From Bifidobacterium breve (GTDB lineage Bacteria; Actinomycetota; Actinomycetes; Nanopelagicales; Nanopelagicaceae): a stretch of 64,000 nucleotides of DNA. Position 1 is the stretch's first letter, and the number at the start of each line of letters is the position of its first letter. A program made the translations under genes and the position numbers. The stretch spans positions 1-64,000 of the forward strand of contig CAMCXZ010000002.1 of assembly GCA_945883725.1 (NCBI GenBank). Reading direction: 5' to 3'. Of this stretch, positions 16,598 through 45,572 are shown in pieces. The notes beneath the pieces were generated by a model that saw only the letters and a program-made list of their open reading frames with translations, made no database searches and was not told where the DNA came from.

Positions 16598-18760
16598 ATG
16601 GACACTCTGTTAGCGCCGGTGGTTAGTGCTTTAACGGAGCATCACCCTGGCGATAAGTTAGAAAATCTTCAGCGCGCTTTTTTGGTGGCAAAAGAAGCTC
16701 ACACTGGACAGTTCCGTAAATCTGGTGAAGATTACATAACTCATCCAGTCGCTGTGGCTGCGATCTTGGCCGAGTTCGGCCTAAATGAAGCTGTCATAAT
16801 CGCAGCTTTGCTGCACGATACAGTCGAAGATACGACATATTCGTTGCAGCAATTACGTAAAGATTTCGGCGAAGAGATTGCCCTGTTAGTCGATGGCGTT
16901 ACTAAATTAGACAAGCTAACTTATGGACCTACGGCCGAGGCAGAAACCGTTAGAAAGATGATCGTAGCGATGTCGCGAGATATTCGCGTTTTGCTTATCA
17001 AGTTGGCCGATCGTCTACACAATGCGCGAACCTGGAAGTATGTCTCACCAGAATCAGCAGAGCGCAAGGCTCGTGAAACGCTCGATATTTATGCGCCACT
17101 GGCTCATAGATTGGGAATGAACGCAATCAAATGGGAACTCGAAGATTTGAGTTTCGAGGTTCTTGAGCCAAAAAAATTCTTGGAAATTTCGCGGTTAGTC
17201 GCTGAACGCAATCCAGCTCGCACAACTTTAACTAATGAAGTTGTTGAAGCGGTGAAATCAGATCTGTTGGCCGATGGTGTTAAATGCACAGTTACCGGAC
17301 GACAGAAACATTTCTATAGCGTGTATCAAAAAATGGTGGTGCGCGGTCGGGATTTCAATGACATTTATGATCTAGTAGGTATTCGCGTGCTAGTGGAAGA
17401 TGTCCGTGATTGCTACGCAGTTCTTGGTGCGATTCACGCCCGCTGGTCCCCAGTACCAGGTCGATTCAAAGATTACATCGCGATGCCGAAATTCAACCTT
17501 TATCAATCACTGCACACAACTGTAATTGGGCCAAGCGGTAAGGCCATCGAAATCCAAATTCGCACATATGACATGCATTCTCGTGCTGAGTTCGGTATCG
17601 CAGCGCACTGGAAATATAAGCAGGGCGCCGAAGCTAACTCGTCATCACCTGAAATGCTTTGGTTGCGCCAACTACATGAATGGCAGAAGGAAACCGAAGA
17701 TCCATCCGAGTTCTTAGATTCGTTACGTTTTGATTTAGGGTCTCCCGAAGTATTTGTTTTCACGCCGAAGGGGAGTGTGATTGCCCTGCCAGGTGGGTCA
17801 ACGCCAGTGGACTTTGCTTATTCAGTACATACCGATGTTGGAAATCGTTGTGCTGGAGCAAAGGTAAATGGTCGGTTAGTGCCGTTGGAGTCAAAGCTGA
17901 GCAATGGCGATGTTGTCGAAGTGGTTCTAAATAAAGGCGAGCACGCCGCACCAAGTCGCGATTGGCTAAATTTCGTAAAGAGTCCTCGAGCGCGATCGAA
18001 GATAAAAGCGTGGTTTAGCAAAGAGCGCCGAGAAGAAGCAATCGAAGCTGGGCGAGAATCAATTGCACGTCAAATGCGAAAAGCCGGCCTTCCACTTCAA
18101 AAGATTTTCGCAGGCCATGCTTTGCTAGAACTTTCGCACGAACTGCACTATCCAGACATTTCGGCGCTATATAGCGCAGTCGGTGATGGACACGTTTCCT
18201 CAGCTTCAATTATTGAAAAACTAATCGCTTCAATGGGGGAGGAAGACTCTCATCCAGAAGCAACTGTTCCAACTTTTCCAACTGGCGTTCAAACCGCCAG
18301 ACGCTCAAGTAGTTCGATTGAGGTTGCTGGAATCGGAGATGTGTATGTGAAGTTGGCTCGGTGCTGCACACCAGTGCCAGGCGATGTGATTATGGGATTC
18401 ATAACCAAAGGCAATGGCGTCTCTGTGCATCGCAGCGATTGCATAAACGCGGCTGATTTGAAATCACACCAAGGCGAGCGCGTTGTTGAAGTTAAATGGT
18501 TAGCTGGCGCGGCCAGCGTATTCCTCGTAAATATCCAAGTTGAAGCACTTGATCGGGCAAGATTGTTAGCAGATGTAACTCGCACGCTATCAGAGCAGCA
18601 TGTGAACATTTTAAGTGCGTCGGTGACAACCTCAAAAGATCGCACAGCAATTTCAAGATTTACGTTTGAAATGGCTGATGCAACACATCTCGATGCGGTA
18701 TTAAGTGCGGTTAGAAATATTGAAGGCGTTTACGATGTTTATCGCACCTTCAATAACTAG
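16598..18760 (+). CDS. rel: Bifunctional (p)ppGpp synthetase/hydrolase Rel
   Basis: Makes and degrades the stringent-response alarmone (p)ppGpp. The 720-aa protein has an HD hydrolase domain with the intact motif HDTVED (His73-Asp78), a synthetase domain with RFKD (Arg289-Asp292), the RXKD form typical of bifunctional Rel enzymes rather than the EXDD of RelA, then TGS (about 385-445), a zinc-finger/helical region with CCTP and a C-terminal ACT domain. Both activities are predicted. Its stop codon directly abuts the stop of the convergent DUF349 gene. Confidence 0.96.
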   Translation: MDTLLAPVVSALTEHHPGDKLENLQRAFLVAKEAHTGQFRKSGEDYITHPVAVAAILAEFGLNEAVIIAALLHDTVEDTTYSLQQLRKDFGEEIALLVDGVTKLDKLTYGPTAEAETVRKMIVAMSRDIRVLLIKLADRLHNARTWKYVSPESAERKARETLDIYAPLAHRLGMNAIKWELEDLSFEVLEPKKFLEISRLVAERNPARTTLTNEVVEAVKSDLLADGVKCTVTGRQKHFYSVYQKMVVRGRDFNDIYDLVGIRVLVEDVRDCYAVLGAIHARWSPVPGRFKDYIAMPKFNLYQSLHTTVIGPSGKAIEIQIRTYDMHSRAEFGIAAHWKYKQGAEANSSSPEMLWLRQLHEWQKETEDPSEFLDSLRFDLGSPEVFVFTPKGSVIALPGGSTPVDFAYSVHTDVGNRCAGAKVNGRLVPLESKLSNGDVVEVVLNKGEHAAPSRDWLNFVKSPRARSKIKAWFSKERREEAIEAGRESIARQMRKAGLPLQKIFAGHALLELSHELHYPDISALYSAVGDGHVSSASIIEKLIASMGEEDSHPEATVPTFPTGVQTARRSSSSIEVAGIGDVYVKLARCCTPVPGDVIMGFITKGNGVSVHRSDCINAADLKSHQGERVVEVKWLAGAASVFLVNIQVEALDRARLLADVTRTLSEQHVNILSASVTTSKDRTAISRFTFEMADATHLDAVLSAVRNIEGVYDVYRTFNN

Positions 18761-42747: not shown

Positions 42748-43691
42748 TGTCGCAATTAGATTTCTCTACAACGCTCGGAAATGCCTGGTTTCCAACTCCA
42801 ATCTTCACGGCAAGTGGCTGTGCTAGTTCAGGTAAAGAGTTATCTCAGTTCTTTGATCTGCGGGATATGGGCGCGATCGTAACTAAATCAATTATGACTA
42901 AACCGCGTGCTGGCCGCGCGACTCCGCGAATGGCTGAGACTCCAAGTGGCATGCTTAATTCGATTGGATTACAAGGTCCAGGTATTGATACTTTTTTATC
43001 GAACGATTTAGCTTGGCTCGTTGAACAAAAAGCACGCGTGATTGTTTCGATTGCTGGCGAGACTGCTGAAGAATTTGCGTCCCTTGCTCGTCGACTTCGT
43101 GGCGTCGCTGGAATATCCGCACTTGAAGTAAATATCTCTTGTCCCAATGTGGAAAATCGCGGCATGGTTTTTGCTTGTCATCTCGAATCAGCGCAAACAG
43201 TGATTGAAGGAGTTCGGCGAACCATCGGCGGAGATTTACCAATCATCGCCAAACTCTCACCAGATGTGACAGATATCGTTTCAATCGCTCGCGGTGTTAT
43301 CGATGCTGGCGCCGATGGATTGGCTCTGATTAATACTGTGCTTGGAATGGTGATTAACCCAAATACCATGCGTCCTCATTTAGGTGGGCGTACGGGTGGT
43401 CTATCAGGCCCGGCCATTAGACCAATTGCGGTTCGTGCGATTTATCAAGTACACGAAGCGTTACCGAAAGTTCCGATTTTAGGTATGGGTGGAGTTTCAT
43501 CTGGTGCTGACGCCTTTGAGTTAATTATGGCTGGCGCAAGTGGAGTTTCGGTAGGTACTGCCTCTTTTGGAAATCCAACTGCGATTGTTAAAATTCAAAA
43601 CGAGTTGCGTCAGATTTTGACAGTTAAAGGTTTTAGCTCGCTTCGGGAAGCTGTTGGGTTCGCGCATCGACCAGAAAACAGTGTCCGATGA
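42747..43691 (+). CDS. pyrD: Dihydroorotate dehydrogenase, class 1B (PyrD)
   Basis: FMN enzyme oxidising dihydroorotate to orotate. The 314-aa TIM-barrel has Cys132 in NISCPNVENRG as catalytic base; cysteine here marks class 1 enzymes, whereas the membrane-bound class 2 uses serine. With PyrK next to it this is the NAD-linked class 1B form. The glycine-rich GLSGPAI and GMGGVSSGADA phosphate loops are present. Start ATG overlaps the pyrK stop (TGATG), and pyrF overlaps its end by 4 nt. Confidence 0.94.
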   Translation: MSQLDFSTTLGNAWFPTPIFTASGCASSGKELSQFFDLRDMGAIVTKSIMTKPRAGRATPRMAETPSGMLNSIGLQGPGIDTFLSNDLAWLVEQKARVIVSIAGETAEEFASLARRLRGVAGISALEVNISCPNVENRGMVFACHLESAQTVIEGVRRTIGGDLPIIAKLSPDVTDIVSIARGVIDAGADGLALINTVLGMVINPNTMRPHLGGRTGGLSGPAIRPIAVRAIYQVHEALPKVPILGMGGVSSGADAFELIMAGASGVSVGTASFGNPTAIVKIQNELRQILTVKGFSSLREAVGFAHRPENSVR

Positions 43692-44395
43692 AAGCACCAA
43701 TTATTTTAGCTACCGACACTTCGGATCTAGAGGTAGCAAAACAATGGGCGAGATTGATAGCTCCACACATAACTGGAATTAAGTTAGGTCTTGAATTCTT
43801 TTTAAATTTCGGTGCCGAAGGGGTACGAGCAGTCTGCGCAGATCATGAGCTAGATCTTTTTCTCGATCTCAAACTGCATGACATCCCAAATACCGTAGGT
43901 CAAGCAGCAGCTGCAGTTTCAGATTTGAAGCCCCGCTTCTTAACGGTCCATGCCTCAGGTGGGCAAGCGATGATTGCAGCGGCCGCAAAGGAGCTTGCTT
44001 CAAGTGAAGTAACTGCGGTAACAATTCTGACGAGTTTGGGCGAGTCAGATTTAATTGAGATTGGTTATCGCAGTAACGCCCTAGAAAGCGCAGTTGGTTT
44101 GGCAAAATTGGCAATATCCGCCGGTGCTAAGGCGATCGTATGTTCGCCGATGGAGGTCGCAGCTATTCGCGCCGCAATTGGTAACCAACCAGCAATCATC
44201 ACGCCAGGTGTTCGCCCAATTGATGCCAGCGCACCACTTGATGATCAAGTTCGTACTATGACCCCATTGGCCGCAATGGAGGCAGGCGCAAGTTATGTGG
44301 TTATTGGTCGACCTATCACGCGATTCTGGAGTCAAGGTGAAGCCGCGTTTAGCGCAAACTTGGCGCAGATTTGTGAACCGCTCTTAGCCCGATAG
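43688..44395 (+). CDS. pyrF: Orotidine 5'-phosphate decarboxylase, type 1
   Basis: Last step to UMP. The 235-aa enzyme has the catalytic array Asp60-Lys62-Asp65 in FLDLKLHDIPNT, Lys32 in ITGIKLG, and IVTPGVRP-like ITPGVRP for the phosphate. This is the common bacterial type 1 sequence; mycobacteria and streptomycetes, as far as recalled, have the longer type 2 enzyme. Its TAG stop forms the start of a -10-like hexamer for the next gene. Confidence 0.93.
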   Translation: MKAPIILATDTSDLEVAKQWARLIAPHITGIKLGLEFFLNFGAEGVRAVCADHELDLFLDLKLHDIPNTVGQAAAAVSDLKPRFLTVHASGGQAMIAAAAKELASSEVTAVTILTSLGESDLIEIGYRSNALESAVGLAKLAISAGAKAIVCSPMEVAAIRAAIGNQPAIITPGVRPIDASAPLDDQVRTMTPLAAMEAGASYVVIGRPITRFWSQGEAAFSANLAQICEPLLAR

Positions 44396-44404: not shown

Positions 44405-45271
44405 ATGCAACCTCCGAAACTCACGCCAGAAGATCGCGCGCGAGCTCTGGCAAAGGCGGCTGCTTCACGTAAGCGGCGAGCTGAGGTAAAGGCACAGATT
44501 AAAAGTACTGAGTATTCGCTAAGCCAAGTTTTCGAACTGAGCAAAACTGACGAAGCGGTTGCGAAAATGAGAGTGTTCGAACTTCTAGAATCAATCTCGG
44601 GTGTTGGAAAAGTAAGAGCCCGTTCGGTAATGGAACGATTAAATATTTCACCAACCCGACGTATTCAGGGCTTAGGTGCGAAACAACTCCCTGCGCTGCT
44701 AGCAGAGTTTGCCAGTCCCACGCTGATCGAACGCGGAAAGTTATTGGTCCTATCTGGACCAGGGGGAGTCGGTAAAAGTACCGTTGCTAAAGAACTTCGC
44801 AAAGAAGCAAATTTCTACGTTTCCGTAAGTGCGACAACCAGAGTGCCTCGCCATAATGAACACGATGGAATCGATTATTTCTTTATTACAGATGCCGAGT
44901 TTGAATCGCGTAAAGCGGCTGGTGATTTTTTAGAGTGGGCCGAATTTGCAGGGGCAAGGTATGCAACTCCGAAAGCACAAGTAGAGGATGCGTTAACAAG
45001 AGGCAAAAACGTACTTTTGGAGATAGATATCGCTGGCGCTGAGCAAGTGCGAAAGGTCAGTACCGAAGCGATTCTGGTGTTTTTGGAGCCACCTTCATGG
45101 GAAGAGCTAGTAACGCGACTTGAGGCTCGAGGAACTGACTCAACGGAACGCAGGGCACAACGCCTTGAATTGGCGCAGGAAGAACTCGCTCACGCCCCTA
45201 ATTTCGACCATCGCATCGTAAATCACTCGGTAACCCAGGTTCTTCGTGAACTGGTATCCTTGGCCTCTTGA
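44405..45271 (+). CDS. gmk: Fused actinobacterial IHF (mIHF) and guanylate kinase
   Basis: One uninterrupted 288-aa frame joins two proteins that are separate neighbouring genes in mycobacteria and streptomycetes. Residues 1 to about 104 are an mIHF/sIHF-type nucleoid protein (LTPEDRARALAKAAASRKRR, helix-turn-helix GVGKVRARSVMERL, GLGAKQ). Residues from about 110 are guanylate kinase, which phosphorylates GMP: P-loop GPGGVGKST at 118-126 with Lys124, SATTRVPRHNEHDGIDYFF, LLEIDIAGAEQV. No ATG or strong ribosome site lies at the junction, so separate translation of the kinase is unlikely. Both halves look intact. Confidence 0.93.
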   Translation: MQPPKLTPEDRARALAKAAASRKRRAEVKAQIKSTEYSLSQVFELSKTDEAVAKMRVFELLESISGVGKVRARSVMERLNISPTRRIQGLGAKQLPALLAEFASPTLIERGKLLVLSGPGGVGKSTVAKELRKEANFYVSVSATTRVPRHNEHDGIDYFFITDAEFESRKAAGDFLEWAEFAGARYATPKAQVEDALTRGKNVLLEIDIAGAEQVRKVSTEAILVFLEPPSWEELVTRLEARGTDSTERRAQRLELAQEELAHAPNFDHRIVNHSVTQVLRELVSLAS

Positions 45272-45323: not shown

Positions 45324-45572
45324 ATGGACGGCATTACAAATCCACCTATCGACGAACTTCTCGATAAGGCCGGCTCTAAGTACAGCTTGGTTCTCTACGC
45401 CGCAAAGCGCGCACGCCAGATCAACGCTTATTACTCACAACTAGGTGAAGGTCTTCTTGAATATGTGGGTCCACTAGTTGAGACACACGTTCACGAGAAG
45501 CCACTTTCAATTGCACTTCGTGAGATCAATGAAGGTTTATTGACTATCGAGAATCTCGAGCCAACTGCTTAA
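45324..45572 (+). CDS. rpoZ: RNA polymerase omega subunit
   Basis: The 82-aa small subunit assists RNA polymerase assembly. It contains the family core [18 protein letters not shown] and [11 protein letters not shown] strong ribosome site (GGAGGA) lies 4 nt before ATG. The order gmk-rpoZ-coaBC-metK is conserved across actinobacteria. Confidence 0.95.

Follow-up and report, generated by a model that had tools for sequence, protein, structure and literature searches.

The mIHF proteins of mycobacteria and sIHF (SCO1480) of Streptomyces represent a family of nucleoid proteins that, in most of the class, are free-standing and about 105 aa long. mIHF is essential in mycobacteria and is one of the most abundant M. 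tuberculosis proteins (PMC6155035), and it binds DNA dynamically, probably as a monomer (PMC10028186); in one report the recombinant protein is described as a dimer (PMC3724605). In M. tuberculosis, mihF is followed by gmk and rpoZ (PMC6155035), which gives the order mihF-gmk-rpoZ (rv1388-rv1389-rpoZ), and the guanylate kinase (GMK) encoded by the second gene, Rv1389 (structure 1znw), has a free N-terminus. The window analysed here, a stretch of 64,000 nucleotides probably from a freshwater-type actinobacterium of the Nanopelagicales (acI), keeps this gene order, with pyrD, pyrF, rpoZ, coaBC, metK and priA as neighbours. However, the first two genes, which are separate in the mihF-gmk-rpoZ clusters of Actinobacteria, form one frame in the window. 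Its N-terminal domain resembles mIHF and sIHF in the H2TH motif GVGKVRA, in the basic residues R22, R25, K29, K54, R85 and R86 and in the fold, whereas the C-terminal kinase is an addition and position 88 is Gln. The C-terminal half resembles Rv1389 along the whole kinase, including the P-loop and most signature columns, and differs from it in being preceded by a DNA-binding domain. The locus is organised as follows.

43688..44395, plus strand: pyrF, lying upstream of the fusion gene at a distance of 9 bp, in conserved operon context
44405..45271, plus strand: fusion gene for mIHF-GMK, 288 aa plus stop; the frame is open in 63/63 genomes of the genus
44414..44710, plus strand: actinobacterial IHF (mIHF/sIHF) domain, aa 4-102 (NF041260, H2TH_5, 4itq/6bek/6tob)
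44711..44734, plus strand: junction or linker, aa 103-110, the ASPTLIER region, with the lowest pLDDT of the model
44735..45262, plus strand: guanylate kinase domain, aa 111-286 (TIGR03263, match to 1znw)
45324..45572, plus strand: rpoZ, the downstream neighbour, in the canonical mihF-gmk-rpoZ order

The 288-aa frame begins with an ATG at 44405, ends with a TGA whose last base is 45271 and contains no internal stop. Searches with the NCBIfam profiles revealed actino_IHF (NF041260) at aa 4-102 with 123.2 bits against a cut-off of 60, covering profile positions 3-101 of 102, and guanyl_kin (TIGR03263) at aa 111-286 with 210.6 bits against a cut-off of 160.45; Pfam assigned H2TH_5 (94 bits) and Guanylate_kin. 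The fusion therefore consists of two complete domains in one frame, joined by about 8 residues. This agrees with the first-pass annotation, which had read the frame as a complete mIHF fused to a complete GMP kinase, as both domains exceed curated cut-offs in a single frame; its estimate of the junction at codons 105-112 is close to residues 103-110 given by the domain ends. The mIHF half carries the H2TH motif GVGKVRA at aa 66-72 and the segment RRIQGLG at aa 85-91, and the kinase half has the P-loop GPGGVGKST. Among proteins of solved structure, the N-terminal half is closest in sequence to sIHF (4itq/6bek) and mIHF (6tob), as found by phmmer, and the C-terminal half to bacterial GMKs; in addition, ribosomal protein uS13 shows weak sequence similarity to the mIHF half. 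The distance between the two domain models is 12-27 nt in most fused members of the window's family and 63-66 nt in genus g9.

An AlphaFold model of the fusion protein was built from 19 sequences, and structures were compared by VIA-align. The model has a mean pLDDT of 88.7, with the lowest block (pLDDT 67) at aa 101-110, and a pTM of 0.64, indicating two well-formed predicted domains whose mutual placement is uncertain. Superposition on M. tuberculosis GMK (1znw) yields a Z of 25.3 and an rmsd of 2.2 Å over 179 residues with 45% identity, and superposition on DNA-bound sIHF (6bek) yields a Z of 16.9 and an rmsd of 1.0 Å over 89 residues. In the model the C-terminal half adopts the GK fold, with its first strand at residues 113-117, and the N-terminal half adopts the H2TH DNA-binding fold.

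One open mIHF-GMK frame was found in 63 of the 63 sampled genomes of the genus, 13 of which are single-contig assemblies. Each genus genome gave one GMK match, and each of those searched for mIHF gave one mIHF match; no second copy of either domain and no pair of separate mihF and gmk genes was found among the sampled genomes of the genus. Comparison of the fusion with five close relatives gave dN of 0.04-0.07 and dS of 1.0-2.6, the silent sites being near saturation, and an omega of about 0.02-0.045, in both halves. These values argue that selection maintains the reading frame as well as the two domains, with strong purifying selection acting on each half. A missed frameshift at the junction, which the first-pass annotation had wanted checked, is thus excluded by the open frames in all sampled genomes of the genus and by dN far below dS. 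That an assembly or sequencing error joined two genes is vanishingly improbable: the window belongs to a draft assembly that is 86% complete, the single point in favour of such an error, and the same fusion is present in the 13 single-contig genomes and in independent public contigs.

The original observation also raised the question of how widespread the architecture is. About two thirds of the window's family carry it: 68 of 101 genomes have the full-length fusion and contig ends truncate it in two others, the fused genera being g1-g5, g7-g9, g12, g14 and g16. Two further groups in the class sample share the fusion, as confirmed for representatives at the level of the locus: family f33, which we infer to be Microbacteriaceae, with 20 of 21 genomes, and genus g96 of family f31, with both of its genomes. 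In genera g6, g10, g11, g13, g15 and g17 of the window's family the two genes are separate, with either a short gap or an overlap of the ATGA type between them. The first-pass statement that mihF and gmk are normally adjacent separate genes thus holds for these six genera as well as for the outgroups. Beyond the class Actinomycetes, no fusion was seen among the matches listed for about 180 genomes from other classes of the phylum, and Collinsella (class Coriobacteriia) has mihF and gmk as separate genes. Several candidates were discarded on inspection, since they proved to be separate genes: an apparent single-frame fusion in one genome (G592) and the long frames of family f55, all of them overlapping genes, and three full-length tblastn matches from Actinomycetaceae (L075-L077).

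A fusion of the same kind is present in a member of a different family, Microbacteriaceae: Microbacterium sp. NIBRBAC000506063 (WP_223172673.1, 298 aa), where it is annotated only as gmk/guanylate kinase. Like the window protein it combines actino_IHF (69.6 bits, cut-off 60) and guanyl_kin (208.9 bits) in one CDS, whereas its mIHF half is more divergent and its linker longer, and it is apparently of separate origin. Annotation as guanylate kinase only can hide the mIHF domain, and surveys of nucleoid proteins may score such lineages as lacking mIHF. A described mIHF-GMK fusion was not found in the searchable open literature. Both domains and the operon are already known; the stable and apparently repeated fusion seems to be undescribed.

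Two observations concern the distribution of mIHF itself. No mIHF was found within about 1.5 kb upstream of gmk at nine loci (L143, L144, L146, L148, L151, L152 and L154-L156) from families f5 and f30 and from genera g63 and g107 of f31, suggesting that mIHF has been lost or relocated in these genomes. A contig labelled Bacillota (L078, JAAYRO010000057.1) carries separate mIHF and GMK genes, the mIHF with 47% identity, and is either misbinned or an instance of mIHF outside Actinomycetota.

The history of the fusion was traced on a tree of the neighbouring genes carB, pyrD, pyrF, rpoZ, coaBC and metK (2487 columns, 63 rows). The fused and separate states need five changes on this tree, at least four of them on starred branches. 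Family f33, genus g96 of f31 and the window's family lie apart; provided that the separate state is the ancestral one, as its broad distribution suggests, this implies three origins or more. Therefore, the mIHF-GMK fusion is a stable architecture that, as far as the sequences indicate, has apparently evolved independently at least three times. A single clade of fused members within the window's family was not rejected (AU test, p 0.113), a value compatible both with one gain without loss and with re-splitting in g11/g17.

The mIHF-GMK pair is read through in 39 of 70 loci, rows that are related so that 39 loci are not 39 events, and read-through of the other seven adjacent operon pairs in the same loci was found in none of about 335 pair instances. 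This shows that the pair behaves unlike its operon neighbours. A general tendency of operons to fuse under streamlining was rejected, because the other adjacent pairs never fused and the f33 genomes measure 2.8-4.3 Mb. In relatives with separate genes, mihF and gmk overlap (ATGA) or are a few nucleotides apart, so small changes are enough for fusion. We propose that the fusion arose when the mihF stop codon was lost from an operon in which mihF and gmk are tightly packed and often overlap, and that it was retained since both halves still function when joined. The apparent repeated origin suggests that the pair is either especially easy to fuse or useful when joined.

Whether the frame yields one product or two was approached by surveying start codons at the junction in 86 fused relatives, one of which (L117) is a separate-gene locus. 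Of the 86, 2 have an ATG or GTG between codons -8 and -4 relative to the P-loop motif SGPGG, and 8 have a start-type codon at the position of window codon 114; a conserved internal start across the whole fused family is ruled out by this survey. The first-pass annotation had seen no start codon or ribosome site at the junction. This stands insofar as no start is conserved and needs amending for the window itself, which has a TTG at codon 114 (44744) preceded by a weak SD-like GGAAAG (-4.4 kcal/mol). The own start ATG of the fusion has no clear Shine-Dalgarno sequence (-1.8 kcal/mol), so a missing one is weak evidence in this genome. Neither an RNA family at the junction nor an excess of promoter- or terminator-like sites over chance expectation was found. 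In addition, 29 of the 86 relatives, most of them from a single subclade of the genus (L002, L021-L025, L038-L043 and others), keep an in-frame ATG (in EF-M-K) where the mIHF domain ends, 15 codons before SGPGG; in this subclade it is possibly a relict or a working internal gmk start.

This subclade ATG, the TTG with its weak SD-like site and the lower model confidence of the linker would fit the production of a free GMK beside the fusion, by an internal start or by proteolysis of the linker. We consider such a second product improbable: no start at the position of codon 114 is conserved in the fused family as a whole, the ATG at the mIHF end is absent from the window and its closest relatives, and the TTG lies inside the first GMK strand, so initiation there would delete residues of that strand. 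A single polypeptide in vivo is accordingly predicted with good confidence.

Both halves appear to have kept most of what defines them. In the window's family, mean retention of the GMK signature columns is 0.85 in fused and 0.88 in separate proteins; the window protein has G187 changed to Ala and a few other signature columns altered. Retention of the conserved mIHF columns is 0.84 for the window protein, 0.75 for the fused and 0.86 for the separate proteins of the family, and about 0.55 on average in the fused proteins of f33/f31, where DNA binding may have changed. Among the fused family members compared, R22, R25, K29, K54, R71, R85 and R86 are invariant and R56 is nearly so, and in all fused groups R22, R25, K29, R71, R85 and R86 are basic and the net charge is +8 to +10. 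The window protein retains 12 of 14 conserved basic columns, columns 31 and 88 being Gln. Position 88 (window 44666-44668, within RRxRGLG) is basic in 50 of 59 separate and in 3 of 97 fused mIHF domains, with Lys in the three exceptions. Each of the three fusion lineages has lost the basic residue, which is missing from all five separate g17 proteins too. An independent-pairs test of position 88 against fusion has only 4 pairs (p 0.125-0.25) at a site picked after looking, so the correlation is underpowered and serves as a lead. We take position 88 to be the last of three arginines to which a part in DNA binding by M. tuberculosis mIHF has been ascribed; the DNA-binding arginines of mIHF were reportedly mapped by Sharadamma in 2014.

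The divergence of the mIHF half in f33/f31 could be taken to mean that this half now serves the GMK as an accessory domain, for stability, oligomerisation or contact with RNA or the ribosome through its S13-like H2TH fold. The weak similarity to uS13 fits this idea, as does the presence of HU, which could carry nucleoid packing, in 15 of 16 genomes searched, the exception being the incomplete genome of the window. We regard it as quite unlikely, since actino_IHF scores reach 108-130 bits across the window's genus, the H2TH motif and most basic residues are retained, and the omega of the mIHF half is as low as that of the GMK half. Moreover, these genomes yielded no other mIHF, a protein essential in mycobacteria (PMC6155035; PMC10028186).

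Based on these sequence comparisons and the model, we propose, with a probability of roughly 0.78, that the gene encodes one bifunctional protein, an mIHF DNA-binding and DNA-bending domain joined to a complete guanylate kinase, which arose by loss of the mihF stop. In support, M. smegmatis grows normally with msIHF-EGFP in place of the essential native gene (PMC10028186), indicating that mIHF tolerates a folded partner. The two functions would be locked at 1:1, an unusual architecture for a nucleoid protein and an essential nucleotide kinase, so that the only mIHF and the only GMK of the cell would share one expression level. Part of the GMK pool would ride the chromosome transiently; the first-pass annotation had likewise suggested that the kinase might be tethered to the nucleoid, or the DNA-binding protein made sensitive to GMP/GDP or ppGpp. 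If the kinase forms a dimer, as in other bacteria, the mIHF domains would be paired and possibly capable of bridging besides bending.

Fusion might also have been selected for coupling, in which occupancy of GMK by substrate or (p)ppGpp affects DNA binding or bridging by mIHF and links GTP supply with compaction, or DNA binding in turn alters GMK activity. GMK is a dimer that (p)ppGpp is known to target in several phyla, and in the enzymes studied the degree of sensitivity to (p)ppGpp is determined by the interface between the subunits (PMC6783271). RelA/SpoT is encoded in all sampled relatives and in the window, where one feature marks it:

17297-17626: RelA/SpoT synthetase domain, in a 723-aa open frame

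Judging by this gene, the window's genome encodes the stringent response. The apparent origins of the fusion, at least three while other operon pairs stayed apart, and the usual absence of a basic residue at position 88 from fused mIHF domains also point towards coupling. However, M. tuberculosis GMK is reportedly regulated differently from those of other Gram-positives (PMC6892785), and position 88 carries the post hoc choice, the few pairs and the exceptions in both directions described above. Selection for coupling is therefore a speculative reading to which we give low odds, and so is its fullest form, a chromatin-bound GTP-supply enzyme in which kinase or (p)ppGpp occupancy would be tied to DNA binding, evolved in at least three independent lineages with a parallel change of a basic residue. 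In Microbacterium, a culturable host, the fusion makes it directly testable whether GTP metabolism is linked to the organisation of the chromosome.

Some database records at this locus deserve caution. Three contigs titled Bifidobacterium breve (L062, L064 and L070; CAMCYS010000001.1, CAMDBB010000001.1 and CAMDCL010000001.1) encode proteins with 63-89% identity to the window protein, and their organism names look wrong. A Microbacterium 'plasmid' of 465 kb (L190, NZ_CP072877.1) carries a pyrF-gmk-rpoZ-metK block of chromosomal type, in which pyrF is broken into two CDS, and is probably a chromosome fragment or a misassembly.
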